Source: Haliclystus octoradiatus
Taxonomy: Eukaryota; Cnidaria; Staurozoa; Stauromedusae; Haliclystidae
Direction: 5' to 3'
Assembly: GCA_916610825.1 (NCBI GenBank)
Contig: OU744453.1
Span: 4,295,845 to 4,359,844, forward strand
DNA: 64,000 nucleotides
Position numbers and translations under genes: made by a program
The notes under the pieces: model-generated
Told to the model about the DNA's origin: nothing
What the model saw: the letters and a program-made list of their open reading frames with translations, nothing else
Database searches by the model: none
Shown here: positions 1,377-61,480 of the stretch, in pieces
Numbering within the stretch: the stretch's first letter is position 1
How the letters are laid out: each line of letters starts with the position of its first letter

Positions 1377-2083
1377 GTAAGGATTTTTATAGGAATCAAT
1401 TAAATGTTTTATATGATATGAATCAATGATGATTTGAAGAAAAATTTGAGAAATCTTGAGAAGTCATGTTATAAATTTGTCTATTTATGAATGCATGGCA
1501 GTGCTGAAACTTCTAGATTAGAACTAACACCCACCTCCCTCTGTCTGCTAGGGCAGGTAGTTACGACTGCGTATGGATGAATAATTCCTGTTTATCTACT
1601 TTATAAACAGAATACAATAGACCACTTGAGAAAAACGTGTGTAATTTACATGTGAAATGATGTGCCCCGCGATGTTCGAATCATTTGCAACGCCTCTTCA
1701 ATTCACAAGTTCACGAATTATTTCATATAGTTAGAAAATAGACCAATCATTACCTAAGGTTAACTAAGGTATAAAGTAATTTTTTGTTATGAGCGCATCA
1801 CTTCATTCGCTGAAAAATTACATTTCCCCTAAATCAAACGACCGTTGGTAATGTGGACTACAGGGTTATGTGGCACAATTCTGCCAGATCACAGTTCTGG
1901 AGAAAATGGAATGAGTTATAGGTCGCATTTTAGGAGGTTTAATGTGACTATACTATACTACCACTATAAGCATCACATCTTATACTCGTTTTAATGATGG
2001 ATTGGTCAGAAATACCATCAAATGTCCCTGTATGTTGATTACTGTACTAACAATTATTATATGCTTGTATTTTGAATATATAG

Positions 2084-2108
2084 ATCGAGTGCAGGAAGGA
2101 AAGTACAG
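2084..2108 (+). CDS. Possible 25-bp microexon linking the PAN and TSP1 exons
   Basis: It lies between an acceptor (ttttgaatatatag) and a donor (GTGATT). In phase 0 it reads IECRKEST and exits in phase 1, the phase needed to join the PAN exon (1113-1376) to the TSP1 exon (2908-3078). The cysteine could be the closing cysteine of the PAN fold. The exon is very short and unsupported by transcript data, so this is speculative. Confidence 0.25.
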
Positions 2109-2852
2109 GTGATTATATTTTCGAATTGATGAACTAATAAATATACAGTCAACGTTATACTTGTTGTGAAAGATACCTTTCGTGACTTGACACTTTTTCC
2201 CAGCAGGGCAGTCAATATTTGTAAATGTTCCACTTCCTAGTTAGCGTGGTCTCCATTTTTGAGCTCATTTTTATTCGTCGGATAATATTTTGTTCGATTA
2301 CTCTAACAACCAATCACTTTTTGATTTCGGTTTTGCACTGAAAGCAATTTCTAAGAAAATGGCAGTGAATTTCCTCGAAATTGCACTTATCATAATCAAT
2401 CAGAATCGAGGAGTGTTTGCTGCTATGTGATTATCAGAGAAATTCAAAATTGAGTTGACCGAGAGATATGCGTGACATACTATTTGATTTGGAGCCCCGC
2501 AAAATGTTCTCGTGAATGACTTCCAAGCATTACAATATTGTATTTGTTTGCTGTCCCGGATGGCACTTCGATATTGTTTAGACGTGGATGTGTCGTTTTC
2601 AAGATCATTCGCATTTTCATAATTTTAAAGGTCAAATAGCATGAAAACTTTCTTCCTTGATATATTACAGGAGTGCTCCAAATTTGGGAAACATCGAGAA
2701 TATAATAAAGATGTGCGTTTACATTTTGAGAACACTCGTTATGAACATCAATTGCCAAACTAGTATGATTAAGAACGCTTGCGTGTAGAAATTGAATCTA
2801 TCTATAATCCAATAATCATACCATTTTTTTCTTTGGAATATTTGTTTTGAAT
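2109..2852. other. Intronic or intergenic AT-rich sequence
   Basis: No open frame with domain content and no clear repeat family is seen. It contains T-rich runs and ends just upstream of the ATG at 2853. Confidence 0.5.
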
Positions 2853-12429
<9,577 letters not shown>

Positions 12430-31000: not shown

Positions 31001-34000
31001 TTTTTTATGTAAGCCTACAATGTCGATAATTGATTACTGGTGGGTCCGATTCTCTGATTAGGCATAAAGTGTAGGCTAACCCTGAACATTAATATCACTG
31101 TCTTCAGGGTCTGACAAAACATCAACAAAAAAATTGAGAAGAAAATGATGAATTTCCTCTAGGATTCCAGACTGCTGAACCTTTTTTCAACCAAATTTTA
31201 TTTTTATTTTTATGAGTCGACCCTATTATAGATATGTGTTTTTTTTTTAATCTAGAATGTCCTTTACTGAAGAAAATTGATGGTTGTTTTATTACTTATA
31301 CGATACAAAGTCATCAGGCACTCAGTGAAGCATTTCATTTAATCCCTGAAAATGTTATCATAAGTGGAGATGATATCGTACCTGGAATATCTGAAACAAA
31401 TGCTGACACAAGTAGGTTATAGAACAAATGAAAAAGTAATGTAGATGGTGTCGCCCTACCAAAGGCACCCGTACCACTCCTCTATTTCTAGATGAGTGGC
31501 TTTTTTCGCTGAGAGCAATGATTTTAAACGCTCTTTGTTGATCTCAGCCGCGACACTGCAGATCAATTTCAACAGATTTCATGGCAGATAGGTCTTGATT
31601 GTCAATGCGCAACGATGCGCCGCAGCTACTCACAATGCAATTCCTTCTGATCTTTCCATCCGCCATCCTCAGATGGTACTCATTTGATGTTTCAGATAAA
31701 ATCAAGGCTGAGTTGACCTTCGGGGGATTTGAACCACAGTCGATCAGATATGATTGATCTGAAGTTCGGTTGTTTGCCATCTGAGCTAATCCTCCTATAA
31801 CAAATGAAACTCTGTAAAAAGCTGTATAAGTGTAGCAAATCTAGCCAAATATCTCTTTGCTAATATAAATAATGAAAATTTTATTAGTCTGATCAATTAT
31901 ATTTCGGATCGGATTGATCTATTGTGGCATTAAGTACCGTAAACCAAAATGTGCGAAGCAGCGTTCTTGGGACATCGGTTTTATCAGAAGCAATCTAGCT
32001 AATTTTCAAAAAATTGCTTTTTGAACACAAAATGTAAAAAAAGCAAGGTTGATCGCAATTTTCCATCAAAAAGACCTAAACAGAGATGATCAACTATACA
32101 CAGAATACAATTATTTATTTATGTTTCATTGTCTGGAATGACTTTGTTTTAGATCTATTCTTCCAAAGTTTTGTTTTACTTTTTAGGCAATTAAGTTAGA
32201 AACCAATTAATTTAAATTACGATATTTGATAAGATACATTATTTAAGTATTGCAGGTTTGTTAAATCGTTAATTTATAGTAAGAAATGGCGAAGATATCA
32301 GCGTTTAAATGTAAAGGTAAAAATGCAGTTTTTACACCTTTATCGAAGTGTTATAAAATCGACACTGTTGCGAATTCGGGAGTAAAAGCTACATATCTGA
32401 ACTCTAGTGAGCTCCTCAAGGTTTTTGTGAATTTCACGAAAGGGTGACGAGAAATGCAGATTTCATATGGAATGACCAAGTACTCAAAGTTTTTTTCGCT
32501 TAGATGGCGTATTAGGTGTTATATTGTTTGTGTTATAATGCTTGTGTTATAATGCTTGTTAGGTGATATAAAGTTAGGTTAGTTGTGGCTATGTTATGTT
32601 ATGCATGTTTTCATCATCTTGACACTGTAAATATATCAGTTCATGATAGTATAGTATTACAGTTGTCATTAAACAAATCATGCTAAATTAAAATGGAAGC
32701 AAATTGGGCCCTAGAACTTATGGTTAGCTCATAGGGTAGTTTTGAATCCAACATTTTGGCATTTTAAGGATCAAAATGAAATACAATTTATGCTTTAAGT
32801 TCGCAAATGGCGTTTATACCGAAAATTTTAATACCGAAAAGTTTTATACCGAAAAAAAAGCCGCGCAAGGAAAATGTTTAATACCGAAAAGTTTAATACC
32901 GAAAAAAGCGGCAAAATAAAAAAGTTTAACAGCAAAAATCATTGAAAGATCGCAACTCCGCGTTTTATTTTGAAATTGCGGATAAAAGTTGAAAACGAAC
33001 AAGCGTACAAGTTTTTGATGTGTTAAATCGAGTTACCCAAACATATTATATTGATAGAAAGTACATTTATCAATTTATTATAACGTCTTTATCGTATGCG
33101 ATCCATTATATAAGATGCTGTGCTCGTTTTCTATGTTTTCCTTATAAACGCCATCTACTTTTAAATTTACGTTATTTCTATTTGTATGTCTGTAGTATGT
33201 AAGGATTCACGATGCCGTTTTACATGCAATATACTTGAAACACATATCAATGGATTCGTCATTAACCAGAGGCGTACATGGCCGGCTTCATTTTTTAAAT
33301 AAAATACACCTCAGTTGAGAAAAACCAATGAAAACTGTTTCGTTTTTCAACAACAATCATTTCTCAGACTGAAGCGCTAATCGAACAGTTTCGCGCTTCA
33401 ATGAATTTCTATTGTCTCGCAAATACAAAACAGGACGATCTGTGTATTTTCATCGTCGTAATTCTCAGAATGAAATTCAAACGTAAACAAACAAAAACAC
33501 ATATAAATATATGAAAGTGAAAAAAATGTGTTATCAGCTTATCTTTATCAGAAATTATATCGGAGAAAGATTTGGAATGGAACGTTTTCAAATTTGTAAA
33601 CAAACCCGCATTATGGAAACTAAATTACAATGTTATAAAATATGTTCTGATAAGAATTTAATTCAGACAACCCCCGAAAACCTTTACAACTTTATGACAC
33701 TTGGGTTGGTTTTGTTGCTTAGATATTTTTTTGGGGTATGGCTACAACTTACACGTGCTTTGGGATCAACCAAATATAGTACCTAGTTTAGTAAATAAAT
33801 GCTGTGCGTTCTACTTTCCACTTCGACAGCAAAAAATGAAATAGAATATGTTCTCAATCAAATTAAGGCTTCGATCAGATTATCTAGGCTACATAGATTT
33901 CTTCATGAATTTATTTTGAACAGTTAAGCCAGACGATTCATATCTCAATATAAGCATGAATTTGCATCAAACTCGAAAACCAGTTTTAAGAATAACAATA

Positions 34001-37000
34001 TCGGACTAAGAAAGCCGATATATATATGTACCAGTTTTTGATGTTTTATATCAAGCTATCTAAACATCATAAAATTATCGAAAGTACATTTATCAGTTTA
34101 GATTAATGTCATTTCTCAAACGCCATTTGAAGAATAGCTATATCGGACTAAGTAAGCCAAAATATATATACCACTTTTTGATGTTATATATATCAACTAC
34201 CTAAACATCTCAAATTCATCGAAAGTACATTTACCAGTTTATTTTAATGTCATCTATCATATGCGACTCTTTATATTGGATACTGTGCTTGTTTTCTATG
34301 TTTTCCTTATAAACGCCATTTGAAGAATAGCTATATAGGACTAAGTAAGCCGAAATATATATACCACTTTTTGATGTTTTATATCAAGCTACCTAAACGT
34401 CTCAAATTTATCAAAAGTACATTTACCAGTTTATTTTAATGTCATCTATCCTATGGGACTCTTTATATTGGATACTGTGCTTGTTTTCTATGTTTTCCTT
34501 ATAAACGCCATTTCAGGAATAGCTATATAGGACTAAGTAAGCCGATATATATGTACCGGTATTTGATATGTTATATCGAGCTACCTAAACATCTTATTTT
34601 GATAGAAAGTACATTTTATTTAGATAGAAAACGAGATAGGATAGATGACATTAAAATAAACTGGAAAATGTCATTTCGATAATTTTAAGATGTTTAGATA
34701 ACTCGATATAACACCTCAAAAAGTGTTATATATATATCGGCTTACTTAATCCGATATGGCTATTGTTCAAATGGCGTTTATAAGGAAAACATAGAAATCG
34801 AGCACAGTATCCAATATAAAGAGTCGCATATGATAGATGACATTCAAAGAAATTGGTAAATGTACTTTCGATAAATTTGAGATGTTTAGGTAGCTTGATA
34901 TAAAACATCAAAAACCGGTGCATATATATCGGCTTTCTTAGTTCGATATAGCTATTCTTCAAGTGGCGTTTATAAGGAAAACATAGAAAATGAGCACAGT
35001 ATCCAATATAAAGAGTCGCATAGGATAGATGACATTAAAATAAACTGGAAAATGTCATTTCGATAATTTTAAGATGTTTAGATAACTTGATATAACACCT
35101 CAAAAAGTGTTATATATATATCGGCTTACTTAATCCGATATGGCTATTGTTCAAATGGCGTTTATAAGGAAAACATAGAAAACGAGCACAGTATCCAATA
35201 TAAAGAGTCGCATATGATAGATGACATTCAAAGAAATTGGTAAATGTACTTTCCATAAATTTGAGATGTTTAGGTAGCTTGATATAAAACATCAAAAACC
35301 GGTGCATATATATCGGCTTTCTTAGTTCGATATAGCTATTCTTCAAGTGGCGTTTATAAGGAAAACATAGAAAATGAGCACAGTATCCAATATAAAGAGT
35401 CGCATAGGATAGATGACATTAAAATACACTGACAAATGTACTTTCGATCATTATAAGATGATTAGGTAAATCGATGTAACACATCAAAAACTGGCACACA
35501 TGTATCGGCGTTCTTAGCCCGATATAGCCATGCTTAAAATTTTTCAGCTACTTTTTCAATTTCACTTTAATTCATGTCTGAGTATATGACATCTAAAGAT
35601 AAACAGTGAATTGTATATTTTAGTGTACTAGACATTTAAAGTCGAGAAAGATAAAAACCGGCTTTTTGAAAATCTGAAAAGCCGTGAAATAACACTTAGT
35701 TCAACATTGATAGCCTTTACTAATTATATACCCCATATTTTTTTATCAAGTTTTTTTAATTCACTTCGATACATATCTAAGTATGACGTACTAAGATAAA
35801 CAGTGATACTGCCCGTTGAACGGGCAGTGGTACTATATGGTACTGCCCGTTCTATTGTGAGAGACATTTAAAGTCTAGAAACATTTAAAACCGCACTGTA
35901 TTGAAGTCACGGGTGCCAAATCCCGCTTTTCTTCACTAACGCCATTTAAAAATCACTCGCGGCATAATATATTACCGCGCAGTTGAAAAAAATGTTTAAT
36001 GCCGAAAAATTTTCAAAATGGCGGTTTTCAGAAAAAGTTTAATACCGAAAATACATTTCGGTATTAAACTTTTCGGTATAAACACATACAACCTTAAAAT
36101 TCAATAATTTTCAGTAGTATTATGAACATTGAATTTTGAGAGATTAAATTTGATCTATAATTTAGATGCAGCCATTATTTTCAGTCTTAATTTTACTGTT
36201 AATTGGTTAATAATTATGAAGCATGTGTAAGTTGAATGTCTGGATTCCCTTCCAAGCGTCAATCCCCCTGCGAAAAACAGTTCAGGAGTTCATAAACAGT
36301 TTATGAACAATCCATGAACGTTGAATTGCTCCAATTTTCCTGAACTGTTCATGAATTGTTAATGAACAGTTCATGAACCCTCAGAGGCAGTTCATGAACA
36401 GTTCATAAAAATTTGGTTCCATATACCGTTTATGAATTGTTCATCAACTGTTAATGAACTTCTGAACTGTTTTGCAGGGGTCAATAGTTCTTCTGCCAGC
36501 AATTAAACCCAAGACCCTGCAGGCAAAAGTTCAATGCCCTAACCGCACACTCAGGCCAGTATTGATTTAAGAAAAATGTTTGACGTTCTATAGACATGCT
36601 CTCTTGAAAGTTGTATCCAATTTGAACAGATTGGTGGTAAGTTGTCATCTATCCACAGACATGCTAAGCTGATAGCTTTCTTGCCAGAGTGGCTAGTTAA
36701 TTGATAAATATTTGAAGTGTGTGTTCATTTCCTGGCCAGATCCTTTCCAGAGCCAATCAGATTAGATTCCTAACAGAAGTTAGGATCCTAAGGCTACGTT
36801 TACAAGAGAGCAAAAACCCGGGTTTTCAAAAGTCTTTCAAAAGTCCACTTTCAGAAAATTCAGATAGGGTATCAGTTTACACAAGAGTAGATTCATCTAT
36901 TTTGTCTAAATAAAGCGCTGTAACTTCATCATTTCTTATCCGTTTTTCGTTGAAATTGGATTTTTATAATTCTTCGTTTCTGTAGCTTCAGATAGATATG

Positions 37001-40000
37001 TTCTTTTTATTTAAACCATTCGAAATAAGTTTTGTTATTCATATCTAATTAAATTCCATTGGAATTGACACCGCTTTTGTAAATAAGACATGTTAAATAC
37101 ATGTTATTCACGATTTTATCTTATATAAACGGATTCATTGAATAGTTTCACTAAACTATAGTATTTTATCCTAAAACAGAGCCAAGTGGTTGCCAATATT
37201 TACATGCCGTATCGCCGCAAAATGAAAGTGGACTTTTGTAAACCTGGGTTTTACATAAATCTCTGTTTAGACGACAGAAAGACCCGGGTTTTGCAAAGTC
37301 TGGCTTGAGAAATCCGGGTTTCCTATCCTTACTTTCAAAAGTCCTGATAGACTCGCTAAGCGGACTAATTTCCTCTTGGGTTTCCTGTTTATGTCTAGAC
37401 GCGAGGGCGATCCAGACTAAAATTCACCCGGGTTTCGTAAATCCACTTGTCGTGTAAACGCAGCCTAAATACCGGAATGCTAGAGCAAATTCAGAAGAAA
37501 GTTGATAATTTTCTGATTTACAGGCCAAACCTCAACAAAAAGTTCACAAGAAAATGTTAATTTTTTTTTTTTCAAGATTTCCGAATTCCGAATCTTTAGT
37601 CGGACCAGGTAACCAATTATGCTACTGCCATTTACTCAATTGAATATACCGCAGGTTCATGTCTAAATTCCTACGTCAAGACTACATGTAATAAATATGT
37701 CAATAATGTAAGATTCAACTGTCTTTTCTTTTATCAGCATTGGGAGTTGTTAATATTCTACAGCAGCCTTCATTGCTTGAGAAATGTCATTGTTATATCG
37801 AGAAGGTAAGATATGCTACAATGTCAGCAAGGTTTGTTTGTACCCTGAAACCTGTATATAACAGCCAGCTACGAGAAAAAGATAGATTGAATGTTGTATA
37901 CACAGGGTTGATTCAATAGAAAATAATATGTTAGACATACTTAGAATGACCATTATAGACAGGTGGCCGCTGTATAGAGGTGACTGTTATAACAGGTTTG
38001 ACTGACTTTAAACATCCATTGAGGTTCTTGAAGCCTACCTTGTATACATACTACTCCTATAAACCTTCTCAAATTTTAATTTTGGTACTCTTCTTGCCAT
38101 AATTTAAAGGTATAGCGCAATATATTTGCAGATGAGAACCAAATTTATTCTCAGCCAAAACATCAAATGAAACATGAAAAATGTAATGTTTCGTCTGTGA
38201 GAATTTACTTTAATTTGTAATTGGAATTGTATCACAAACAATGCTGTTCAGCATAATCCTCATCACTTAACATCAAAATAAGTTTGCATTTAGTTTTTGT
38301 GTGTTTATCAATGAGGGTAATGCTTGCGTCTGAAATTTTATCTTAATAGTTTCATTTTCGAATCACATTGGTTGCCTTCATTACTCTCCCTGTGAAACAG
38401 TTTGTTGAGCTCCTGAACTGTTTATGGACTGTTCAAAAACTTTACAAACTTTCATGAACTGTTCATAACCACCTTATAAGCAGTTCATGAACTAGTTCAT
38501 GAGTTCATGAACTAGTTCATGAACGTTATAGTTCATGAGTTAATGAACTAGTTCGTGAACGTTAAATGACACCATTTTCATGAACGTTTGTCTCCGTGAA
38601 TGCTCATAAACTGTTAAGGGGATTTATGTGAGGAGTTATTGTAGTGTTTAGGGCATTGGATCTTTGGTCTCAGGGTCTTGGGTTCAATCCCTGGCAGAAG
38701 CACTATTTGTTGGCTTCAGGAAGAGCATCCGGTCATTAAATGCAAAAACACTTCAAAAATACTAATCAATTAACCAATCACCGCGGTAAGACAAGGCTAC
38801 TGACTTACCCGATTTGTTGTGTCGATCAATCAATCAATAAACTCAATTAAAAAATTGCATGGCTGTCTTGATTCTCTGCTTTATTCACTTTCAAATGTTG
38901 TATTCTTTCGTAGGTTGCAATAGAGTTTTCACCTTCAGTTGATGCTGTTGAGACATATCTTTGTCAGTTATTGAATAAAGATAGAATTGCAAAAGTATGA
39001 CACATTATAAACTTACAGAAATGATTAAGAAGATTGGTGTTAGATCCATGGTTTACCAGATAATAATCATTAGCGCTCCTGTCAATTACAAAATGTGGAA
39101 TAATCTACCCAAACTATACATATTCCCCGCAAAAAAACGTGTTGAGTTCATGAACAATTCATAAACATGTTATAAACAGTTCAGGAAGTTCATGAACACA
39201 TTATAAACTGTACTTAAACTGTTCACGATTTGTCCATAAGCTGCCCGTGAAGGTTCATGAACTGTCCATGAACTGCCCGTGTAGGCTCATGAAATGTCCA
39301 TGAACTGCCCACGAAGGTTCATAAACTGTCCATAAACTGCCTGTGAAGGTTCATGAACCGTCCATGAACTGTTCATGAATTGCTGAACTGTTTTCCACAG
39401 GGGATGACCTGTTTTTCTGTGAAATTAGGTTATTCAGTTACATCACAAAGGATTTACAGGTTTATTAGCTCGATTTAGTTAATTATATTTGGAAAGTTAT
39501 GTATTAGGCAAGTCATTTTATTTCCAAAGGATTGGTTTAATTTCTCTATTGTTGGCATCCTACCGGTAACAAGAAATTTTCTTTTTCTCCTCAACAATTT
39601 GAATTTAAAGTCAATTTGCAACAGCTTACTATTTTTATTCCAAATAACATTTCAATCAATTTGAAATAAAAATTTTAAACTGCTTCAATTTACTTTTTAT
39701 TTTTCATGTGCTTTTCATGTGTTTTTCATGGGTTTTTCATATAGGCCTACAATTACATTTGTGGAGCTTATTGTTGTGTTTTGTATACATTAATAAGTTC
39801 ACGGAAAGATAAGTTCACTGTACTATGAACAAATTGATATGTTAATATTTTGTCTATTCAATTTCCAGTGTGAACTTGACCCTGATGGAGCAATTGTGTC
39901 TGTCATTGAAAGAAAGTTATTGGTTAGTTCTGTTAATCAAAACTCTTATAACGGTCACCTCTATACAGTAGCCACCTGTATACAGTGGTCACTCTTGCAA

Positions 40001-43000
40001 TATCTTAAATAGTATTTTCTATTGAATTTAAACTTTATATAAAGGCCATCTACATATAGTGGTCTACATCTCATAGCTAACTGCTATGTGCGTTGCCCTC
40101 ATTTCCATGTGTCGCTTCGGTGATGCTACATGCTTAGCTGTACCTTGACAAATTGAAAATGCGATGCAGCATTTGATAAGTAATTGAGACGAAATTGCAC
40201 TACCGAAGACGCACAAACTGCTCTTCGTTCTTTTCGGTAAGAGCAATGATTGTCCCTGCGAAAAACTGTGCAGGAGTTCATCAACAGCTCATGAACGTTA
40301 AATGGCTCCATTTTCTATGAACTGTTCATGAACTTTCACGCACAGTTCATGAAGATTTGGAGCCAGTTAACGTTCATGACCTGTTTGTGAACTCCTGGAT
40401 TGTTTTTCGCAGGCTTTTAAATGCACTTTGGGCGTATTGACGCTGTAGACCGATATCAATACATGACAGATTGCCTTGATTGTCAAACCGCTATGCAATG
40501 ACACTACATGAACTGTTTGTCAACTAATAAATAATTCTGTTCTCTATAAATTCTGGAGTCTGGAAGAAAGTGAATGATAGCAAATGACTTAGTTTCTAAT
40601 TTAGTTTTATATGCTTATATGCGTTTAAATTTAAAAATCATTTTCATCATTTTTTCTCATATAACATCAGCTATCCAAATACGTGTGAAAATGTTTTGAT
40701 GGCATGTTTACTTTAAATAGACATTTATTGTTTATTTTAGGTTGGTGTTCATAATGGTTGGTGCTTTATATCGGTTCCTCATGTTGTTTATCTTGAAAAA
40801 GACTTTGATGGACAAAGACCTAGATTGGGGTCATTGGACACATCAAGAACATCACCAACAAAAACACAAACAAGTATGGATACAGATTTTGATGTGCCTC
40901 GTGCAGTAGCTACATGATGCTTATGTCTTAAACTTTTCAATTGTTAGAAGCCCTGGACTTATTGACGATGGGAGAATTTACATATTTTATTTTTTATTAA
41001 TGAAGTATGTCATATTTTTGAACTGTATTTGCGCAATTTTTAAGACAGATAATTTTGTGATCCTAAAACACATGTTGCGATAAGCTGGATCAAATTGATC
41101 CGATTTAGAATTTAAGAGTACCTCGTTGTGATTCATATAATATGATGGATTCTATTCTGTGTTTGAACAAGTCTTTTTTCTGAACCTCTACGTCTAGATC
41201 GTCTAAAAAGGAACCGAGGAGTTCTATTTCTAGAGGAGTGGCTCTTTCTGTTAAGAGCAATGATGTTAAACGCTCCTAGGCCTTGATTGTCAAAGGCCAA
41301 GGATGCGCCACAACTACTCACAATGTAATTCCCTCTGGACCATTCCATCCACCATCCTTAGATGGTACTCATTTGATGTTTAGATAAAGTCAAGGCTGAG
41401 TTGACCTCAGGGGGATTTGAACCACAGTCAATCAGATATGATTTGATCTGAAGTTCGATTGCTCTGCCAACTGAGCTAATCACTCCTTATATCGCCTGAA
41501 GATGAGAAAAATGTACTTGACTTGGGTACTTAGAGGAATCTACACTATTCAATGTGACAATACTACCACGCACTACTAGCGTATGTAGGCGTACAGTGTA
41601 GCATCGTTCATATGCGTATCCTGATGATAATAAGCGGCTTGTGACATCAACTGAAGTAAAATACAGAGAAACCGGTATATAACAGCCAGCTACGAGAGTT
41701 GATAAATTGACCATTATAGACAGGTGGCTTTTATATACAGGTTTGATTCAATAAAAAATACAATTTTAGACATTGCAAGAGTGACCACTATATTCAGGTG
41801 GCCGCTTTATAGAGGTGACATTATAACAGGTTTGACTGTAGTTGAGTTTGAAAGAGACTGGTTCTGAAAATTGAACAATAATAAGCGGTTTGTGATATTA
41901 ACCGGAGTGAAATAATTGAGTTTGATAGAACCTGGTTCTGAAAAATTAATGATATTGTAACGTATAATAATAATAATTAATAACTCACTGTTGAATCATC
42001 CTTTTATTTTAATGTTATAACGTTTGAGGTTGGCCACTGTCAGGGAGAAGATGACTGTAATGATTATGTAGATAACATTGGTTTCAGAGCCTCTATAACA
42101 GGACCAACCTTACTTGTTGATGGTCGATAGTTAACAGGAGATTTACAATAGGTATTCAACCAAAACTCGCTCTTTTGCTCACAATAACATATACAACGAC
42201 AAATGCCACAGCCACTCATTTAAATCAGCTGGTATTCACAAATGGAATCAACAAGTTCCCTGGATAAAAGAAATAGCTAACAGAACAACATATATAGATA
42301 ATTTGAAGAAAACATTAATAAAATAATATATATCTTATGTAAATTTGTATACTTTATATAAATTTAAAATTTGCTAATATGGTACTAACATGGTATTCTT
42401 AAATACTATATTATATGCATTTTGTAATCAGCCCTGTGAAAACAAGCCTAGTATGGCTTACCAGGCCCTGAATAAATATATGATGATGATGATGATGATG
42501 TAACATGGTTTAATGCTGTATTTGTAACATTTTCTACGTTTAGAACCTTCAACACAGTTGGTTGTCAAAAGTAGAATTGATTTAGATGAAGTGTTTCAGC
42601 ATCCATTATGCACCTTGGTATTTCAATTGGATCTATTAGTTAGTTTACCGATTGTTAAACCAGAATTTCCTGCTGGAAAGAAGGCTCAAACAAAGGTAAG
42701 ACAAATTAGATATGTAAACTCAATTTATCCTTTTTGGCTATCCCTATTTGAAGCCTTAGTGTAGGCAAATCTACAATCTGTGTAGTAGTATAGTCCCATA
42801 GAAGAAATCAATCAATCATATGGACACTTTGACTAAAAGATAGTTATTGGAAATAGTCTAGAATTATTCAACATGATATTCTGAACAAATTAAAGTCAAA
42901 AAGTATCTTAAAACGTGCACCGGAAGTAGTTCCAGGCTCTTGTCGTTAAAACTCAGATACAAATAAAAAGAGCCTGGAACTAGTTCCAGTGCACATTTTA

Positions 43001-46000
43001 AGATAATTTTTGAATCTACTTTGTTCAGAATATCATGTTGAATAATTCTAGACTATTTCCAATAACTATCTTCTTGTCAAAATGTCCATATATGATTGAT
43101 TGATATTTTCTATGGGACTACACTACTCTACTACACAGATTGTAGATTTGCCTTAGTGTAGCGGTTAGGGCGTTGGACTGTTGGACCATAGACATAATAG
43201 ATATAGACTGCTGATGACGTTCGAAATTGGGCTTAAAACGTAGCACCTATAGGGATCCATAATGGCTAACACATGCGCCCAAAGTGGCGGGAAAAGCAGT
43301 GTTTTGACCCAATATTGTTGTTAGAAAATAAAAGAATAGATGAGCCAGATTATTTCGAGCTACTTTTAAAGCAACTAAATATGATTGAATTTAACAGTTT
43401 TTTATGTATTACTGGATTTCGAATCAAATCCGCTAAATTATTTTATCAAATTTCACTGAAATATTCCAATTTTGTAAGTAGGAATGTCGCTGTTTTTGTA
43501 ACAATAAGACATCAAAATTTCAGAATTTGCTCAGATTTAACATTTATTAATCATCCAAGCTGTATTTACCGGACAAGATGCATGTTTACTGCTGGTTACA
43601 GCAACGCACAGGGCGCAAAATGAATGTAGAAAAGTTGATATCGAAACAATAACAAACAAATTATAGTAATGGTACGAAAAATAATCAAGTTTGATCCACC
43701 AAATATCCAAATATTTTACACACTAGTGATAATAGTTATAAAGTCTAAGATTGATGAAGATAGCCACAAATTAAGCCTCATAACCAGCAGTACCATCGCA
43801 AAACAAGCGTAGCCGATACCAATGAATATCAAAATATGCTAATTTTTATTATAATCAATGTTTCCGTATCATTAAATCCATATCAAACATGCTCAAAAGC
43901 AAGACAAATAGACATATGCAGCGATTTAAATCAATTCAAGCACTTTGTGTCTACTTCAAATACCAAATTGTATTGGAATTTAGACTTATGCGGTCAGTTT
44001 ACAACATACAACTGCAACTAGTGGGCGCATGTGTCTACCATTTTGGCTGCCCATGAATGCCACGCGTCACGTGATCCATCAGCGGTCTATATCTATTATG
44101 TCTATGCGTTGGACCTTGGGTCACAGGGTCTTGGGTTCAATCTCTGGCAGAAGCACTATTGGTTGGTGTTAGGAAGGGCATCCAACCATTAAACTCACAC
44201 GCTCCATAAATACTAACCAATTAACCAACCACCCTCGTGAAAAAAAGCTACTAGCTTCATAATAAAATGATAAATCTAAAGGAAATAATTAACGGAGCCA
44301 ATTTCTATGATCAGCTCTTGCACTATTCATGAACTGTTCATGAATGTTGAGTTATTTATGCTTTAAATGTTCAATAATTTCAGTAGTGTCATCAGCATTC
44401 AATGTTGAGAGGTTAAATTTGACCTATAATTTGTATTAAGCCATTACAGCGTAAGCCGCATAAGTGCAATCCGGATAAGTGAAATTCCCGCTTATATGCA
44501 ACCATGCTTTAAAATTCTATTGACTATTTTGTAGTCATGTCTTTGTTAAGCAGTTTCGGTTAAGTGCAAAGTTGAATAGATGCAATGAAAATCGTTGACA
44601 ATTTTGACTTGCGCTTAATCGGGTTACACTGTATTTTCATTTTTTCCCGCCATAGTGTACAGTAAATATCGCATAATACAAAAATAATTTAACATATTAC
44701 TCGATAAAACATATTGTACGATAACGTAATTACTGTATGCAATATTGACTGTATCTGTATGTTTCACAGAATAAAATAGTTTTAATATTTTTGTATTATA
44801 GCTCAACTCATCATTGTATGGTAGTATGCCATTGAATCAAAAAGAAACAGTTTCATTGCGATGGTCTGCATGGTCCCCGTTTAGTCCAAATACTAAAAAC
44901 CATAATGATGTTGTATTAAATCTGAATGATGGACCACCCGATGGAATTAATCCGTTTAACGTACCTATTGTCACTGGAAGATTGGGCAAAGATCTAGCTA
45001 AAACAGTACGTCGAAACTTTTTGTGGCTTTTAATTTATTTTTTATCCTCAATTTAACCCCTGGTAAAATCAGTTCAGGAGTTCATGAACAGTTCATGCCA
45101 ATTCATGAACATTAAATGGCCCCAAAATGTCATGAACTGTTCATGAACTGTCCGTGAAGGTTCAACAGTTCATGAAATTTGGGGCCATTGGAACTGTTCA
45201 ACTTTTGCAGGAGCAATTCAAGTTCATGTTCTCGAAGTTCTCTCAATAAATGATGATGATGATGATGGCTGTGATGAAGTGAATCCCTGCGAAAAGCTCT
45301 CTGGGTTTATAAACTGTTGATAAATTTTACTAATATTTGTTCATTTTGATACGTTAAAAACAGTACATGAACAAGTTAAATTGCCTATTTTTCTTTCATG
45401 AATTGTTCATGAATTGTTCATGGAAATTGGACCATTTAACATTCCTGAACTGTCACTAGGTAAATAATGCCTCCTCATGTGAAAATCAATTCATGAGCGT
45501 TAAATGGCCTCAATTTTCATAAACTGTTCATGAACAGTTGGTGTGACAGAAGAGGTTATGAATTGGTATATAAGCACAACCAGACTGTAGCATGTGATTC
45601 ATCCTAATTAGTTTCTAATTTCCGGGTTCCTAACAGTCGAGGCAACAAGTGAAACACATGACTCTTGACTCTCAGAGGGTCTGGTAACCAAATTTACTTA
45701 AAGCGATTTGAATTTTTATTTTTCTGTGGGTATGTATGTTATTGCGGATTTTATATGGAATGACCAAGTTGCGTTTTTCACTTAGATGACTTGGTTAAGT
45801 GTTATAAGGTGTGTTGTGTTATAATGCTTGTTAGGTGGTATAAAGTTATGCTAGGTGTTGGTATGTTATGTTATGCATGTTTTCATCATCTTGATACTGT
45901 AAATATATCAGTTCATGATAGTATAGTATTACAGTTGTCATTGAACAAATCATGCTAAATTAAAATGGAAGCAAATTGGGCCCTCGAACTTATGGTTAGC

Positions 46001-49000: not shown

Positions 49001-52000
49001 GAACAAATTGCCAGGGTTCAACAAAAGTATGAATTCTGGTACCCTAGATTAGTAGCTTTTTCACCGGGGTGATTGGTTACCCCTGCGAAAAAGTTCATGA
49101 ACGTTCATGAACTTTCATGAACTGAGTTCATGAACGTTCATGAACTAGTTCATCAACGTTAAATGGCACAGAGTTCATGAACGTTCATGAACTCAAGTTC
49201 ATGAAAGTTCACCAAAGTTAATGAACTAGTTCATCAAAGTTCATGAACTAGTTCAGCAAAGTTCATGAATTAGTTCATCAAAGTTCATAAACTAGTTCAT
49301 CAAAGTTCATGAACGTTCATGAAAAAGTTCATCAAAGTTCATGAACAAGTTCATCAAAGTTCATGAACAAGTTCATCAAAGTTCATGAAGCAGTTCATCA
49401 AAGTTCATGAAATCAGTCCATCAAAGTTCATCAAAGTTCATGAACGTTCATGAACTGTATAGTAAATAACAGATTAAAACAAGAATAGGAAAAAGCAACT
49501 TTGAATGTTTGAACATTTAATTCACAAAAAATTGTAAAATGTGATATAGTAAGAGGAAATGAATACATTCAAACAAATAAAATACATGATATAGAAATGT
49601 AGGAATTAGTATAGCTTGTTAAAATATCAAAGATTGTTTGAAGCCGATTGATACTTTAAATATGTCTAAAGTCAAATCAATTCTGCTCATTGAAGCCTAA
49701 AGCATATCAACTTCTGAAAGTGTGCTGTCCTTGAATGTCTTTTGCTTTGAACGGATTTTTCCAGTTATGGAGCATGATTTAACTTTCTATTCTGTGTACA
49801 TATCTCTCTAAGTCTTCAAATCATAATGTGAAGTCTTACCTTTTAAATGTATATTTGTATGAGTATCTTACTATATTAAGGGTAAATTGGTTCTCTGTTG
49901 GGATATTCTTTTCTTGCCATGATTCATTTCAAAACTTATTATATCATGTAATGATATTTGCACCTACTTTAAGAAGTGTTTTTAATAATAATGATAATTA
50001 ATATTAATATCAACCTTTGGATTGTATATGTTCAAGAGCTTAAAGTTGTGACATGTCCAGTGTTTGAATTGAAAATAGCAAGCAACACAAATAATTATAC
50101 ATTGAACTTCTTTATGTAGTTTTGTTTTGGGGGTAAATAAAAGTCTTGCAAAGCTTTGCATCTCTGATTTATCTTTTTGTGAATAATTAAAAGGAATTAT
50201 AAAATCTGGCCTCACATTCTTTGCATGGTATTCAATGTATACACCAACACCAGATATGAGCAACCAAACAACCATGTGGGGAGTAGGTCTACTGTAGTAA
50301 ATTCTGTTTGAGTTTTGAAAACCACAGTTTCATCTAATTAGTATTCCAAAATCAAGCTTTAGTTTCACTTGGAAATCATCTTTTCAATCCTGTTGAAGCC
50401 ATATATTTTTATGTAAAACTTTGTAGAATATCTATCCATCAGCTAAATTTTTCATATTACTGAATTAAACTCATTTTTCAAGTTTGCTATCTTTCTCTGG
50501 CTCAAGTAAACAAGCAGCAAAAGTAAGGAATGATATAATTACTAACTGACTTCATAAGCCAGTTTTCTTTTGAATAACAATAGCTAGTACCCAGATCCAA
50601 GCACCTAGTCTACATATAGACAGCTTATCACCTTACTTATAAGCATGAGATGACAGCATGAGCTCAGCATGAATTTATTAGCTTCTCACTTAGACACCCA
50701 CTTAGCACTTCCTGTTTGTGAGATTTGTCATCAAAAACTTACTTCTTCACACATTGGCTATTGATGCTTCAGTTTGTTTGTTTTGATATTTTAGCTCGGG
50801 TTATCAATTTATTTAAATATACAGGATAATCAACACACAAGAAGGGCCTGCTCTCTATTGTGTGTATAATTAAAAATAAATTGAATTTTAATCAATTAAA
50901 CTATTTATTCCATTAAAATTTAGATAGCCTAGTCACAGCACAGGATGTTTTAGGATATATTCAACACAATGTTAACATTATAATAAAAGTACAATCAAAC
51001 TAACACATTAATGCATCAGACATGAAACAACAAACTTGAACAAGAACATTATCATTTCTGATGGATAAAACTCAGAAAAAAGTTAGCTGTAGATTTTACA
51101 ACTAACTAACTTATAGACATTGTAATTAATTAACTTAAGTACATACATTGTCTTGACAAATGAAGACACATGTGTGTCTTCTGTCTTCTCCTAAACAATC
51201 TATCAGAAGGAGGGGATCCTGGGAACCTGGTTCATTGAAGGCCAGCACAAATCAGTAGGTTTTCAAATATAAGATTTACTTTTCAACATTATTATTCATG
51301 GGCTTCACATTCATTTTGTATAAATATTTTGAAAACCCTAAAAGTGGAAAGTTTCCTATCTTATCTGGAATTTCTGATTCCAGTAATGCAAACATTTTGT
51401 GACACCCTGCCCCTAAGGCATTGTCTATTTGTCATTAGTTGAGATCAATAATTTGCTGCTAGATTTTATTGGCATTACTTATATACTGCCCTGATCACTA
51501 GGCAATAAGCTCCAAAATTGTTGACATGGTACCAGAAGTGCTGCCAATTAGACCTGCATTGATTTATGTTTTCCTGCTAAAATAGCCCTTACAATTATGT
51601 GTTAATACAGTTTCACATTTACTGTATCTAGTTGAGCTTTATTATGTATTCTGATCAGAATGTTTTTTTATCATGAAGTTTCATAAGCTAGGATTTCTGA
51701 TTCATTAATTCAGAATTAATGTCCATGAACTTCTACTACTGGTAGGGTTTACGAGAAATGACTGCAAAGAATGAACATTGATTGAAGTTTATGAACGTTC
51801 ATGAACTTGGAATATAGTTCATGGACTTTGAATACTGGTTAATAAACTTGGAATGTGGTTGTTGAATGATGACTTTTAGTTCATCAAAGCTCATGAACCT
51901 TCATGAACTTTGTGGGTCCATGAACTATTTGTTTACAAACTGCTATGATTAGTTCATGAACATTCATGAACTTGAATAAAAGTTCAAGAACGTATATGAA

Positions 52001-55000
52001 CTTTCATGAACTTTGATGAATTTGGAAAACTAGTTCATGAACGTTCATGAACTTTTATGAACTTGGACAACTAGTTCATAAACTTTGAGTGTAGTTCATG
52101 AATGGGGACTTTGAGTTCATCAAAGTTCATGAACGTTCATGAACTGTAAGAGTTAGTGAACCATTTTTTTATGAACTATTCCTTACACTTCATGAACTGT
52201 TCATCAAAGTTCATGAACTGTTCATCAAAGTTCATGAACGTTCATAAAAGTTCATGAATGTTCATGAACTTTTATGAACTTTCATGAACTTGTTTCGCAG
52301 GGGTAGTTTGCTAGTATTTTTGAGGCGTTTGTGCATTTTTATGGTCAGATGCCCTTTCTGACGCCAACAAATAGTGCTTCTGCCTGGGATTGGACCAAAG
52401 ACCCTGAGGTATTAGCTCAGATGGCAGAGCAACCGAACTTCAGATCGGATCATATCTGGTCGCCTGTGGTTCAAATCCTCCAAAGGTCAACTCAGCCTTT
52501 ATTTTTTCTAAAACATCAAATGAGTACCATCTGAAGATGCGAATGGAATGGTCGAGAAGGAATTGCATTGTGAGTAGCTGCGGCGCATTGTTGCGCATTG
52601 ACAATCGGGACTTATCTGCCATGAAATCTGTTGAAATTGATCTGCAGTGTCGTAGTTGAGATTGACAAAGAGCGCTTAAAATCTTTGATCTCGGCAAAAA
52701 AGCCACTCTTCTAGAAATAGAAGAGATGTACAGGTGCCTTCAGTAGGGCGACACCGTTTATATTACTTTTATTTACCCTGAGGGCCGACGTCCAAAGCTC
52801 TCTAACCACTCCACCAAGGCTGCCCTTGAATGGCCCAATTTTCACGAACGGTTCACAGGATTGTACTTCTACTAATTTTTTCAATTTGTTCCTTAAATCT
52901 TCACATCCCTGTGTCAGATCTTATGTTTTATCCAATCCAAATATTTGCTAGACGATTCTTTTAACATTATGGTATGGTGGATTCTTTGAGGTTTATAAGC
53001 TGTTTCGGCATGAGTGATCGAAACATTGCTGTTAGCCAATCAACTTACTAGAATTATATCTAACATATTTCGCATTTTATGTATAAAAAATATCGAAATA
53101 TATTTTTCATGTTACGTATAAAAATATGTTGAAACATATAACGTACAGTGAAACCTGTATATAACGGCCAGCAACGAGAGGTAGATAAATTGACCACTAT
53201 AGACAGGTGGCCTTTATATACAGACTCAATTCAATAGAAAATACTATTTTAGACATTACAAAAGTGAACACTATAGACAGGTGGCCGTTGTATAGTGGTG
53301 ACCGCTATAACAGGTTTGACTGTAAACATTTTACATATAGGAAATGTCACTACCAATGTGTCAAAAAGAATATTCAGATATCAAAAATTCTTAACAAATA
53401 TACATTACATAAATGCACAGGTAGCCGGTCTACATCATTTTGTTGGTTGAGGGATGTAGATAATTGTAACAACAAAGGATACAGTGAAACCTGTATATAA
53501 CGGCCAGCTAAGAGAGGTAGATAAATTGACCCCTATAGACAGGTGGCCTTTATATACAGGTATGATTCAATAGAAAATTCTATTTTAGACATTGAAAGAG
53601 TGACCGCTATAGACAGATGGCCGCTATATAGAGGTGACCGTTATAACAGGTTTGACTGTAATTATTTATTGCATGTGGCTTCCTTAAAGACCATAAAATG
53701 ACCAGCAGCCTTTGCATATTTTTGTCTTTGAAATCTGGACCCAGATTTCAATCACTCGTTTTCATGATATACGGCTCGCCTTTGTGTCTCCTTTGCACAC
53801 ACGCTCGATTTTGCAAAACATTTCGTAAAACGAACATGGAAGCATTCTGTGATTCTGCCAAGTTATTTATCAACGAACTGGTTTGGAAAGTTACAAGAGC
53901 AATAGAGGTGAACGTCGTAAGAGCTTTCGACGCTTGAATAAATGTGTACCACGAAAATCAATTCACTTGATATGCTACTAGCGTCATGCGAATTGAGGAA
54001 GGAAGACAGAGTTGAAAGCTAGAACTGAACTCGACTGATTCAAAATTTCATGTTGGTGTTTACTTTATACAAGAATATTAGGGAATGAAAGAACGGGAAG
54101 AGATTTGTTAGCATTCAAAATCGAAATTTATCGCCGAAACAAAATGAAATTATAACACCAGGTGAATTCGAATTTTAATGCGGATACTTTGATCATTGAC
54201 TCCAAATTATGTTTGTAAACACGTAGGCTCCGTCTAAAAATAGTTAGTAACATACCTATGTGTGTTTTATATTGCATTGTTTTTCTGCAGTATATATGCA
54301 CGTAAATTGTAAAATTTAGAATCATATGAATTTATTTAGTGTTGATTTGAAAGTACATTTTATCCAAGTTGTTTTGATTTGCGTCAAACTTCTCAGACAG
54401 ATAATTGGACTGTGACTCCCATTCCGCTATTTATTTTTGAGCCGTATACATTTGTTGGCTATCTATAGCCATAGACTTTGCGTTTCGACAAGTAATAATT
54501 GAGATTTATTCAAAACTGAAATTGATAAACCAGACTATTTTCTCGAGCTTTCTGTAGCAACAACCACGAGGACAATCCTCTGACGTGGGCGCTGACGTCA
54601 CTTTCCAGAGGATTAGCCTCGTTTCTTGTGATCAAGACAACAAAACAAAGCAAAGGCTGCTGGTCATTCGAAACTCTTTAATTCAGCTATCGATCATACA
54701 ACAAAGATTTTCTATGCTTCATTCCCCTGTTTAGAATATCCAGTTCACGGAAGAGAAAATTACCAATTTTCCATAAACTTTTCATGAACAGCTCATAAGC
54801 GTTAAAATTTTCATGAAAATGTGTTCAATTTCACCTTGATGAACTGGCTTATTCGCCCTAAGCGAATATATATGAACAGCTCATATCAAAATTCCACTTG
54901 ATCTATTTGGTCAGTTCTTTGAAGCTGTCATTAATCTGTGACACTAAACTGATGTATGATTTGTTTTTATTATAGATTATCAACATCAACAACAAGAGCT

Positions 55001-58000
55001 AGCCAAGCGAAACTTCACAGTGCAGGTTATCCCCCGTTAACTGACAAAGAAGGGAATCCTCCTTTTATGATTAATCCATCGGATGAGTTTTGTTCTAATT
55101 TTGAATTGGAAGAAGAAGATATATTAAACTGCAACGAAATAACATTTCAATTTCTGGCATTGTCATGGTACGTCCATGACTGCTTTGGACCTATTTTGTT
55201 ACCTGTAGCCCACACTATCAGAGACCCTATTTCAGTAACCAAATGGGAATAAAATAATAGATTATACGGTAATTTCCACAGCATTTAACCGAATTTACAC
55301 TTAATTTTGGTTATCAGAATTGTTTTTAAGCTGGTTACACTGTATGTAGTACAGCTATTGACTTAGGGTTTTTGGCGAAATGAATTCAAATTGAATCAAT
55401 CGAATACATTTGGAGAAGCAACTGTTGCCAACAAGCCTTTATGTATCTTATAACATCTTTGTAAATTGATGCGTTGACTAATCAAAGCGGGATAAGTTCC
55501 TTCTCAGAGAAGTACCTACGGCTCAGAATTTTCAATAATTATTATGATCTCATAATGTTTTTTTTGTTTCTTCTTCATCAGGTGTAACCATGCAAGAGTC
55601 TTTTTCACCTTTCAATTCTATCGATTTCCTCAAGTGACAACCGATCGGTATGGTAAAATCATTAAATCATTAAATCCATCATGATTGCCCCTGCGAAAAA
55701 CAGTTCAGGAGTTTATGAACAGTTCATGAAGATTGGGGCTATTTAACGTTCATGAACAGTTCATGAAAATTGAAGCCATTTAACGCTCATGAACAGTTCA
55801 TGAAAATTGGAACCATTTAATGTTCATGAACAGTTCATGAAAATTGGGGCCATTTTTCAAATAATCATTTGACATTAAATGAATCCAAAACACGATACAT
55901 ACTTTTTAATCATAGAAATCCTGTCTCCATTAACATCACATTAAATAGTATACCAATCCAACAGTGTGGACGAAACTGCCAGGAGAAGTCTATGAAATTT
56001 TTAGGCATTTTTCTTGATGACAGATTGAACTGGAATGTTCACATTGACTTTGTTTGTAAAAAAATCAGAAAACTTTTGTATACAATTATTCGACTTAAAA
56101 AATTTCTCCCATTAGCTCATAAAGTAAAAATATATTCTGCAATAATAAAACCACATATTGAATATGGCTTAACTGTCTGGGGTAATTCTGCTCATCGCAA
56201 TAAAGTTAACGTTTTACAAAAAAATGCATCCGCATTATCACTCTTTCTAAGCCTCTCACGCATTCGTTACCTCTTTTAAAATCTGTATCAATTTTGACTT
56301 TCGATGATCTTTACAAATGCAATGTTCTCGCCCTAATTTGGAGTTTTTTCAACAAAAAATGTCCAGCAATTTTAGTAAACAATTTTCACTTCCTTGGAAG
56401 TAGTTCCAACAGACGACAACGATATGTAATGTATGTCCCCTTTAGGAAATCAAACTTTCACCAAAAACTTCCTAATTACCATTACCCCACAATGTGGAAT
56501 CACTCATTAAATATTATAAGTAAGTTATATGACCAAAAAAAGTTAAAGATACAGCTCAAGCTCGCTCTACTGAACAAGTATTCTGATATCTGCTCCATTG
56601 GCTTACCAGACTGCTATGTTTGTTCACAATCAGACTAATAACCTGCCTATTAACACCACTCAAACTCCTTATGAATTTTCTTCTTTCTTTGCAATCAACT
56701 TATTAACATTATCTCACTCAATCTCTGCAATCTGAAAATAAATTTTTTTATCCTATTCAATCTTTGCATTCTGCAATTTATTTTCTATGTAGTAATATTC
56801 ATTATTTTTGCTTTCCTTCTTTTATCCTTATCTGAAACTTAATTGACTTATCCTGGCATTATAATATGCTAATTGTAAATCATACAGTGTCCCCCGATAA
56901 ACAAGCATTGCTTAAGGGGTGACCCCAATCATTTTATAAATGTGAATCAATATAATTGTAATTAAATATTTTCATTAAGTAACTTTTATTCACAAAAGTG
57001 ATTGAAATATATATCTATCTATTAATATATATCTATCTATTTAACGTTCATGAACAGTTTGTGAAAATTGGGGCCATTTAACGTTCATGATCAGTTCATG
57101 AAAATTGGGGCCATTTAACGTTCATGAACAGTTCATGAAAATTGGGGCCATTTAACTTTCATGAACAGTTCATGAAATTTGGGGCCATTTAACCTTCATG
57201 AACAGTTCATGAAAATTGGGGCCATTTAACGTTCATGAACTGTTCATGACCTCCTTAATTGTTTTTTGCAGGGGGTAGCTTAGGTTGAATGGTTTCCAGT
57301 TACTAGCTACAGTCATACCTGTTGTAGCAGTCAACTATATATACATCGACATGTCTATAGTGGTCACTCTAGCAATGTCTGAAATAGTATGTTGAAATAT
57401 CCCTGTATATAAAGATCACCTTCGTATGATGGTCAATTTTACAGATTTCACTGTATGTTCTTAGTTAAGGGTCACATTATGGAATCTGTATTTATGTTTT
57501 TTACGGGCTTGTGTTTACTGATGCTCCCTAGTGTCTACCATTATCCCTTGTGTTGGTAGCAGAGAACCCAAACATAAACTCTATTTGAATTCTGAATTTA
57601 ATTTTGAAGTATCAACGAAATCAACATTGTTTGATTATTATTATTTGGAAATGTTTTGTGTTTTGTCTCTTGAACATGGTTTCAAAGCTATTTCAGCTTA
57701 TGTAATCCAAACGCGGGAGTAAGTTAATCAAGAAGTAAAACAGCGTTTCAATAATTTCTCCCATTTCACAGTCATATATACAGTGTCCTACAAAAGATTC
57801 AGCCTTCCCGAATCTTAAAACATTTTCTGAATTTTTTGTTGGGGTTTGGGCCTATAAATCAGAATATTATAAATGTCCTTCTTAATTTTATCTAGGTTTC
57901 CGGGATCTAGGATTCCTGGATTCCCACTTTTGTCTGACCCTGCATAGATATATGTATAAGAGGATTACGGGTTCCCCTAGTAAAACATGCCGTCTGAATT

Positions 58001-59881: not shown

Positions 59882-61480
59882 TGTAACGCCCAACCAAAGG
59901 CACCCGTACCACTCCTCTATTTCTAGGAGAGTGGCTCTTTTTGCTAAGAGCAATGATGCTGAATACTCTTTATTGATCTTACCCGCAACACTGCAGATAA
60001 CTTTCAACACATTTCATGGTAGATAGGGGAGAGCGGGGTGAAATGGAACGGGGGTGAATCGGAATACACAACTTCTAGAGACTCAAAAATTACAAAATTG
60101 CAGCAGAATATTGTTCTTATATGGTCTAAACATTGTGTAAAGTTTCATTTCGATACATAAAGTAAATAAAATATAATAAGCCTTTGAAAATTTGTACGCG
60201 TGATGCAAGTCATTCGCTTCTCACATCGCGTTTGATTTTATTTTCATTTCTTCACGCATCAGGTGTTATTGCATACCATTGTGTAGAGAATTTCCGTGTT
60301 ATGACGTAGGCAGTTGTTATTTTCGTATTTTCCAGCAAACTTTCTAGTAAATAGTGTTTATGTTGCAAGATTCACGATGGGGTTGAATGGAACACGGCGG
60401 GAAACATTTCAATCACAGTCTGGCTTCACACTGCTTTGCTTTGTTGTTGCTCCGCCTTTGATTTCACACCAAGAAGAAATCATTCAAATTAATCCATTAA
60501 ATTGGTTCAATTGCCTCTTTTCAATAGTACATAGCCTTGTATTATTTCTATGAAGCATTGACCTTTTTGTTGTTTTATTTTCAACGTAAAATTAATGAGT
60601 TTGTATTGTCTTGTTTTGACTTATTATTTCCCTCGTGAATCAATGTGAATTATAATGTAAACAAAACATTTGCATGAGCGGTTTCTTTGAATTTGACACC
60701 TTCGGAAGGAATGCGACTTTTTCGAAGGACTGCATGAACTTAAATGTTGTTTTATTCATATTATATTGGTTAAATCTAATTAAAACCCATTTGAATGATT
60801 AACCTTACTCATATTCTCTCAATTATAACTGAAATTTGAAAAATTATACTGGTACGGGAAAATGTTATCGTGTTTTACGGAGACGCATTTTTTCGAATGG
60901 AAAATAATAATCTTATAAATTTATATTTGGAAGTAAGTTTCTTTATCTATCTAATTTATTATTGTTGATGTCAATTTTTAAAGGCTCAATAGCTATGATA
61001 CTCAATTTATTTGAACAAATTCGATGAAATAATGGTAAATTTGCGATCATTCCGTTTCACCCCACATTTTCGCAAAATCGCGGTTTTGAAAAAATGTCAT
61101 TCTTCCTTTAAACATTGTTTCAACTTTGATTTGACAATATTCAGGTATTTTGCATTATAAACTTCAGACAATTTCCTACAAATTGATACCAAAATTGTGA
61201 GTTTTGCGTGAGCCGTTTTGGAGCAATAATTTTTTTAAGAAAATTTGTTCCAATTCACCTCGCTCTCCCCTAGGCCTCAATTGTCAATGTGCAACGATGC
61301 GCCACAGCTACACGCAATGCAATTCTCTCTGAACCATTCCACCTGGCATCCTTAGAAGGTACTCATTTGATGTTTTAGATTAAGTCGAGGCTGAGTTTAC
61401 TGCCAGGGGATTTAAATCTCAGTCAATCAGAAATGATCCGATGTGGATTTCGGTTGCTCTGCCATCTGAACTAATCCTCC
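59882..61480 (-). mobile_element. SINE family A split by a TIR element
   Basis: Pieces 59882-60025 and 61273-61480 join as a normal minus-strand A copy ('cacatttcatggtagata' with 'ggcctcaattgtcaatgtgc'). The head inverse 'ctgccatctgaactaatcct' is at the right. Confidence 0.88.
60026..61270. mobile_element. 1.25-kb TIR element with TA duplication
   Basis: Ends GGGGAGAGCGGGGTGAAATG and (inverse) GGGGAGAGCGAGGTGAATTG, TA at 60024-60025 and 61271-61272. Interior ORF 60314-60553 has no recognisable transposase motif. Confidence 0.88.

Follow-up and report, generated by a model that had tools for sequence, protein, structure and literature searches.

The DNA analysed here is a 64,000-nucleotide stretch of the Haliclystus octoradiatus genome, which we call the window (C10:4295845-4359844; the analysed genome comprises 262 Mb in 33 contigs). 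At 49080-52303 it holds a unit that is very probably a young non-autonomous cut-and-paste DNA transposon. The unit, here called the 3.2-kb element, starts at 49080 with CCCCTGCGAAAAAG, and its last letters, to 52303, are TTGTTTCGCAGGGG. It has precise ends, was inserted as a unit, is flanked by a 2-bp target duplication, occurs in many dispersed young copies and shows no coding signal in its interior. Its parts are the following.

49080..52303, + strand: whole element, 3224 bp, from end matching and empty-site alignment
49078..49079, no strand: left copy of the 2-bp target duplication, TA, from flanks and empty-site alignment
49080..49090, + strand: left terminal inverted repeat (TIR), CCCCTGCGAAA
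49092..49456, + strand: left subterminal array, made of palindromes of the GTTCATGAAC type, many of them spaced 10 or 22 bp apart; its length differs from copy to copy
49461..51689, + strand: interior, 2215-2241 bp in 35 copies
51789..52292, + strand: right subterminal array of GTTCATGAAC-type palindromes
52293..52303, + strand: right TIR, TTTCGCAGGGG
52304..52305, no strand: right copy of the target duplication, TA

A single insertion and its copies in the genome

A sequence-only reading of the window had proposed that the outer flanks are adjoining parts of one copy of a short interspersed element, SINE B, and that the whole interval between them was therefore inserted as one unit. We removed the element together with one TA, joined the flanks and compared the joined sequence by BLAST with the masked window and the other loci that had been read. 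Sixteen matches were obtained, five of which, all inside the window, crossed the junction. These were SINE copies near 28090, 28578, 38801, 44253 and 46912, with matches extending 22-29 bases to the left of the junction and about 100 bases to its right. The string GGTTA was present once at the aligned junction in three of the five (38801, 44253 and 28090), and the other two had drifted there. These empty sites, three of them with a single GGTTA, show that the SINE argument was correct: the ends are exact, TA stands on both flanks, and the joined flanks form a continuous SINE. The flanking SINE B was one copy; two independent halves, named beforehand as an outcome that would speak against a single insertion, were not found.

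The unit was also dispersed through the genome, as proposed. A whole-element search scored 40 of its 1681 candidates and gave 164 matches; the copy counts given here are therefore lower bounds. The 40 copies fetched and the window copy made 41 that were bounded at both ends, with no more than 2 mismatches tolerated in the end motif. Identical 2-bp flanks were present in 38 of the 41, and their sequence was variable: TA 10, AT 7, TG 7, CA 4, AA 4, TT 3, and one each of GG, AG and CC. When flanks were paired across different copies, they agreed in 0.13 of pairings, and a 3-bp flank repeat was found in none of the 41. The base following the duplication was G in 23 of the 38 copies and the base preceding it was C in 17, for a base frequency of 0.167; both occurred together in 9 of 38, where about 1 was expected.

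Thirty-five copies of 3.0-3.3 kb were aligned to estimate age, excluding six of the 41 that had large insertions or a deletion. They diverged from their consensus by 0.35-1.27%, with a mean of 0.74%. Columns with at least 30 letters held 500 variants, 396 of them singletons and 104 shared. Fifty-two variants were common to at least three copies and formed nested groups, the window copy falling with L009-L013. Such nesting fits successive rounds of copying from different members, as judged from these shared variants.

Exact 23-base end searches found 65 left and 72 right ends (137 in total), which formed 49 pairs within 12 kb; 40 of these pairs spanned 3052-3250 bp. Nineteen of the 49 were new relative to 44 copies located earlier, and 11 left and 14 right exact ends outside the located copies were unpaired.

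Subterminal arrays and interior

The palindrome GTTCATGAAC is 10 letters long and lies densely just inside both ends of the element. The window has 39 such sites, where base composition predicts 0.07, and 21 of them fall in the element's arrays (12 left, 9 right). The string TTCATGAA occurs 79 times in the window, against 2.4 expected; the 5' array has 18 of these occurrences, the 3' array has 16 and the interior has none. In the left array, units such as AGTTCATCAAAGTTCATGAACT recur, often every 22 bp, along with palindromes set back to back every 10 bp; the same words are found in the right array in a looser arrangement. Each array is self-complementary, and each end is able to fold alone. 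Both arrays folded much better than their dinucleotide shuffles, with z values of -15.8 (100 shuffles) and -14.0 (20 shuffles).

Inverted short-repeat arrays at both ends around an unrelated middle are also found in the Foldback (FB) elements of Drosophila, which have long inverted repeats made of short tandem units, and the strong single-strand folding of the 3.2-kb element would suit an element of that type. FB elements duplicate 9 bp of their target, whereas the duplication here is 2 bp, and each array is self-complementary by itself. We consider FB membership highly improbable and rejected it.

The lengths of the two arrays differed among the 35 copies (268-414 bp and 533-719 bp), while the interior was constant at 2215-2241 bp. 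Length changes of this kind would be as expected from slippage or recombination among short repeats. They could also be taken to mean that arrays had expanded locally around ordinary sequence, in a segmental or satellite-type spread, but the precise ends, the equal flanks that 38 of 41 copies have at their different sites and the empty sites in the window make this explanation extremely improbable.

In a genome search with the interior alone (40 of 359 candidates scored), 41 matches were obtained, the lowest at 95% identity, and all of them fell within copies of the 3.2-kb element or fragments of such copies. Single-copy interior sequence without the arrays, whose presence in related individuals or species had likewise been named beforehand as a finding that would speak against the element, did not occur among these scored candidates of the genome itself. 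The interior had been described as unlike any other part of the window. Among the matches listed, there was no significant one in the short foldback copies described below, and the best one elsewhere in the window, at 10606, had an E value of 0.008.

The interior has 12 stop-to-stop frames of at least 40 codons, 11 of which were scanned against Pfam; the twelfth runs out of the right end. None of the 11 reached the curated cut-off, the best match being at chance level (E 0.72), in agreement with the earlier statement that the element holds no recognised transposase. In the three longest frames, the synonymous shares of the variants among the 35 copies were 9/39, 4/27 and 8/34, close to the 0.19-0.20 predicted for frames free of selection. 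Relative to the window frame, 2, 33 and 34 of the 35 copies, respectively, carried stops or frameshifts. There was thus no sign of coding selection in these three frames. The element may have arisen by deletion from a coding element, but neither the 11 frames scanned nor the three tested for selection showed any remnant of coding sequence.

Short foldback elements

Five shorter elements in the window had been read as sharing the ends of the 3.2-kb element and as its possible descendants.

36265..36480, + strand: related short foldback element, equal flanks TC; of what looks to be an older, larger family
39124..39403, + strand: related short foldback element, diverged ends, equal flanks AT
40253..40415, + strand: related short foldback element, no equal 2-bp flanks
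45057..45213, + strand: related short foldback element, diverged, no equal 2-bp flanks
55688..57274, + strand: related short-type foldback ends, middle of about 1.1 kb without the motif, no equal 2-bp flanks

The ends were the same for the first 11-13 bp and then diverged, a typical short copy continuing with CAGTTCAGGAGTTC and the long element with GTTCATGAAC. The proposed descent was not borne out: among the matches listed, the interior had no significant match in the short copies. Equal 2-bp flanks were present in two of the five (36265 and 39124), and a sixth copy, at L021:106-270, had flanks GG, although the search that found it demanded equal flanks. Four of the window copies and the L021 copy were about 160-280 bp long, and the fifth window copy was 1.6 kb.

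This short GTTCATGAAC foldback family, which resembles miniature inverted-repeat transposable elements, has in common with the long element the first 11-13 bp, the GTTCATGAAC motif vocabulary, the 13-base string AACGTTAAATGGC (found in the long element and several short copies) and, in some copies, equal 2-bp flanks. It differs in being mostly far shorter, more diverged and far more numerous, and no common interior was seen. A genome search with 36265-36480 (216 bp), in which 40 of 2870 candidates were scored, found 39 other copies, 83-90% alike and most of them full length. One 24-base end of the short family had 848 exact occurrences in the genome, and its reversed control had none. By eye, a few of the first 100 of these 848 ends were convergent and 4.7-7.1 kb apart on contig C1.

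From these comparisons, the short family is larger than the 3.2-kb family and looks older, the greater age being read from the 83-90% likeness of its copies against the 0.35-1.27% divergence of the 3.2-kb copies from their consensus. The two look like cousins using the same kind of ends, and likely had an older common ancestor, itself not seen.

Relation to known transposons and the search for a transposase

The TIRs, duplication, dispersed copies, empty sites and lack of a transposase are those of a non-autonomous TIR DNA transposon in general. No published description of the 3.2-kb family was seen among the papers listed by literature searches, and the listed papers that matched the end or motif strings were unrelated by title. 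The target duplication contradicts several families. Tc1/mariner elements duplicate TA only, and TA made up only 10 of the 38 duplications. Elements of the piggyBac type duplicate TTAA, which is contradicted by the variable 2-bp duplications. PIF/Harbinger elements, in the available text of PMC4482050, duplicate a 3-bp TWA, and a 3-bp repeat was present in none of the 41 copies.

The 2-bp duplication is a likeness to ISL2EU (PHIS) elements, for which the same available text gives a duplication of AT in the target A-AT-T (PMC4482050). The 3.2-kb element might then be an ISL2EU-type derivative that depends for its movement on YqaJ-bearing elements. These are common here: the genome gave 96 matches to YqaJ (PF09588), several of them in long open frames. 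We regard this as very unlikely. Only 7 of the 38 duplications were AT, so that the AT restriction of ISL2EU is not seen, and the element has none of the THAP and YqaJ genes of that group. The element ends, at up to 1 mismatch, were found in none of ten YqaJ loci of about 3.4 kb. Three further YqaJ loci were read at 7-8.6 kb: L059 had the TIR CTATAGAGCGTTTTCC, L061 had the TIR ATACAGTGTTTTCAC, and L060 had no convincing pair. YqaJ elements were accordingly rejected as the partner on the other TIRs of L059 and L061, the two resolved among the 96 matches.

These two loci are ISL2EU-like elements in their own right (L059:2708-8182 and L061:1198-6366), each with a YqaJ frame of more than 900 codons and a second, convergent frame. 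A 917-codon YqaJ frame was found 11 times at equal score, which suggests recent activity. Within L059, positions 5736-5851 also form a foldback stretch of the GTTCATGAAC type.

Subterminal repeats of CACTA/EnSpm elements bind the transposase or a partner protein. Extracts of PMC8978399 describe the repeats of CACTA elements as 10-20-bp units in direct and inverted orientation, with a 3-bp target duplication, and the accessible part of PMC6004678 reports 2-bp duplications for elements of CACTA type in a tunicate and in wasp-associated viruses. The 3.2-kb element resembles this group, CMC (CACTA-Mirage-Chapaev), in its short TIR, in subterminal units of 10-20 bp in both orientations, matching the definition in the extracts (PMC8978399), and in a short non-specific duplication, which in CACTA elements is 2-3 bp and here was 2 bp, variable, in 38 of 41 copies. 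The terminus differed: the 41 bounded copies ended CCCCTGCGAAA..TTTCGCAGGGG with up to 2 mismatches. We did not file the element in CACTA/EnSpm because the CAC terminus was sought and not found. A further difference is that no transposase was recognised in it. By analogy, the combination of array and TIR might work like CACTA subterminal repeats.

We propose that the element is mobilised in trans by a transposase encoded elsewhere in the genome. A dimeric transposase, or a partner protein, would bind the 10-bp palindromes, many of which lie one turn (10 bp) or two turns (22 bp) of DNA apart. The bound protein would load onto both subterminal arrays and pair the element ends; the transposase would then cut at CCCC and insert the element by joins staggered by 2 bp, mildly favouring targets in which C precedes and G follows the duplicated pair. 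Our best guess for the helper, tentative and drawn from the CACTA analogy, is a transposase of the CMC group.

CMC transposases are present in the genome, with 36 matches to PF02992, the CACTA transposase family. PF03004 had no matches, a result that is uninformative because it had none in 14 control genomes either. One PF02992 locus, L062:657-6430, reads as a CACTA element. Its ends are CACTACCAAC and GTTGGTAGTG, ATG flanks it on either side, and its subterminal arrays consist of a CCGTGAAAA motif; many further PF02992 matches in the genome are close to it in score and frame length. It differs from the 3.2-kb element in its CACTACC ends, its 3-bp equal flanks and its array motif. The genome thus runs CACTA elements of similar architecture, but analogy is their only link to the 3.2-kb family.

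Several observations weigh against reading the element as a cut-and-paste transposon with a CMC-type helper. The element ends CCCC..GGGG, whereas CACTA/EnSpm elements end CAC..GTG. The 36 PF02992 matches all lay more than 13.5 kb from the nearest of the 137 exact ends, and no CMC-type DDE transposase was recognised in the element or PF02992 gene linked to its ends. Of the two PF02992 loci read, L062 ended in CACTACC, and L063 (2.4 kb), the 3' side of one PF02992 match, which by eye reads like further exons, reached no end. No autonomous partner was found among the longer copies, YqaJ loci, PF02992 loci and exact end pairs examined. The longest exact-end pair spanned 5696 bp (L043), and the bounded copies L046 and L047 measured 6361 and 7164 bp; all three carry nested insertions. 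Together with L045 and L048, these were rejected as autonomous copies, other sequence having been inserted into them. The long elements among the exact end pairs were only such nested copies, pairs of 3880 and 3948 bp not having been read. Finally, three of the 41 copies (L023, L033 and L045) lacked equal 2-bp flanks, and three of the 38 duplications are soft, those of L013 and L026 lying in G or C runs and that of L029 at a damaged right end.

The sequences nested in these copies are of several kinds. Those of L046 (2015-5298) and L047 (reverse complement, about 1960-5921) are partly alike 3-4-kb insertions, located about 10 bp apart in the element (at 1471-1479 and 1480-1490) and with alike inverted ends of about 520 bp. 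A frame at 4639-5103 of L047 had a weak Ig-like match (Ig_2, E 0.0017), below the cut-off. The insertion at L043:2480-4963, with a 6-bp overlap, has a 632-codon frame that by eye resembles gag, including a zinc knuckle, together with a piece like a protease. L048 contains, with a 13-bp overlap, a repeat of about 200 bp, tRNA-like by eye, that also occurs in the window at 52404-52600, 31600-31794, 41288-41485 and 61282-61479.

The CCCC termini, variable 2-bp duplication and palindromic arrays might instead mark an undescribed DNA-transposon superfamily or deep lineage with its own transposase, which we consider unlikely. The CCCC..GGGG ends and variable 2-bp duplication together match no family checked, and the tens of young copies, beside 848 exact ends in the older family, imply that a transposase has persisted for a long time. 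Against this, no transposase was seen, and ends and duplications vary within known superfamilies: for the CMCT group (CMC plus Transib), the available portion of PMC12730594 gives duplications of 2-5 bp and 5'-CA..TG-3' termini "in most cases". A new superfamily is a possibility which, for want of an autonomous copy with its transposase, is unsupported. A broader proposal, also unlikely in our view, is that both the 3.2-kb element and the older short family belong, as non-autonomous branches, to an undescribed DNA-transposon lineage, either a new superfamily or a deep CMC branch. Its hallmarks would be CCCCTGCGAAA termini, a variable 2-bp duplication in a weakly palindromic C-NN-G target, and helix-phased arrays of 10-bp palindromes serving as a loading platform for the transposase.

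Superfamily placement aside, the 3.2-kb element is a real, well bounded, young and non-autonomous unit. The youth of its family means that a working transposase may still exist in the genome. The element offers a clean natural case for palindromic subterminal arrays guiding transposition, and would help to name a repeat lineage.

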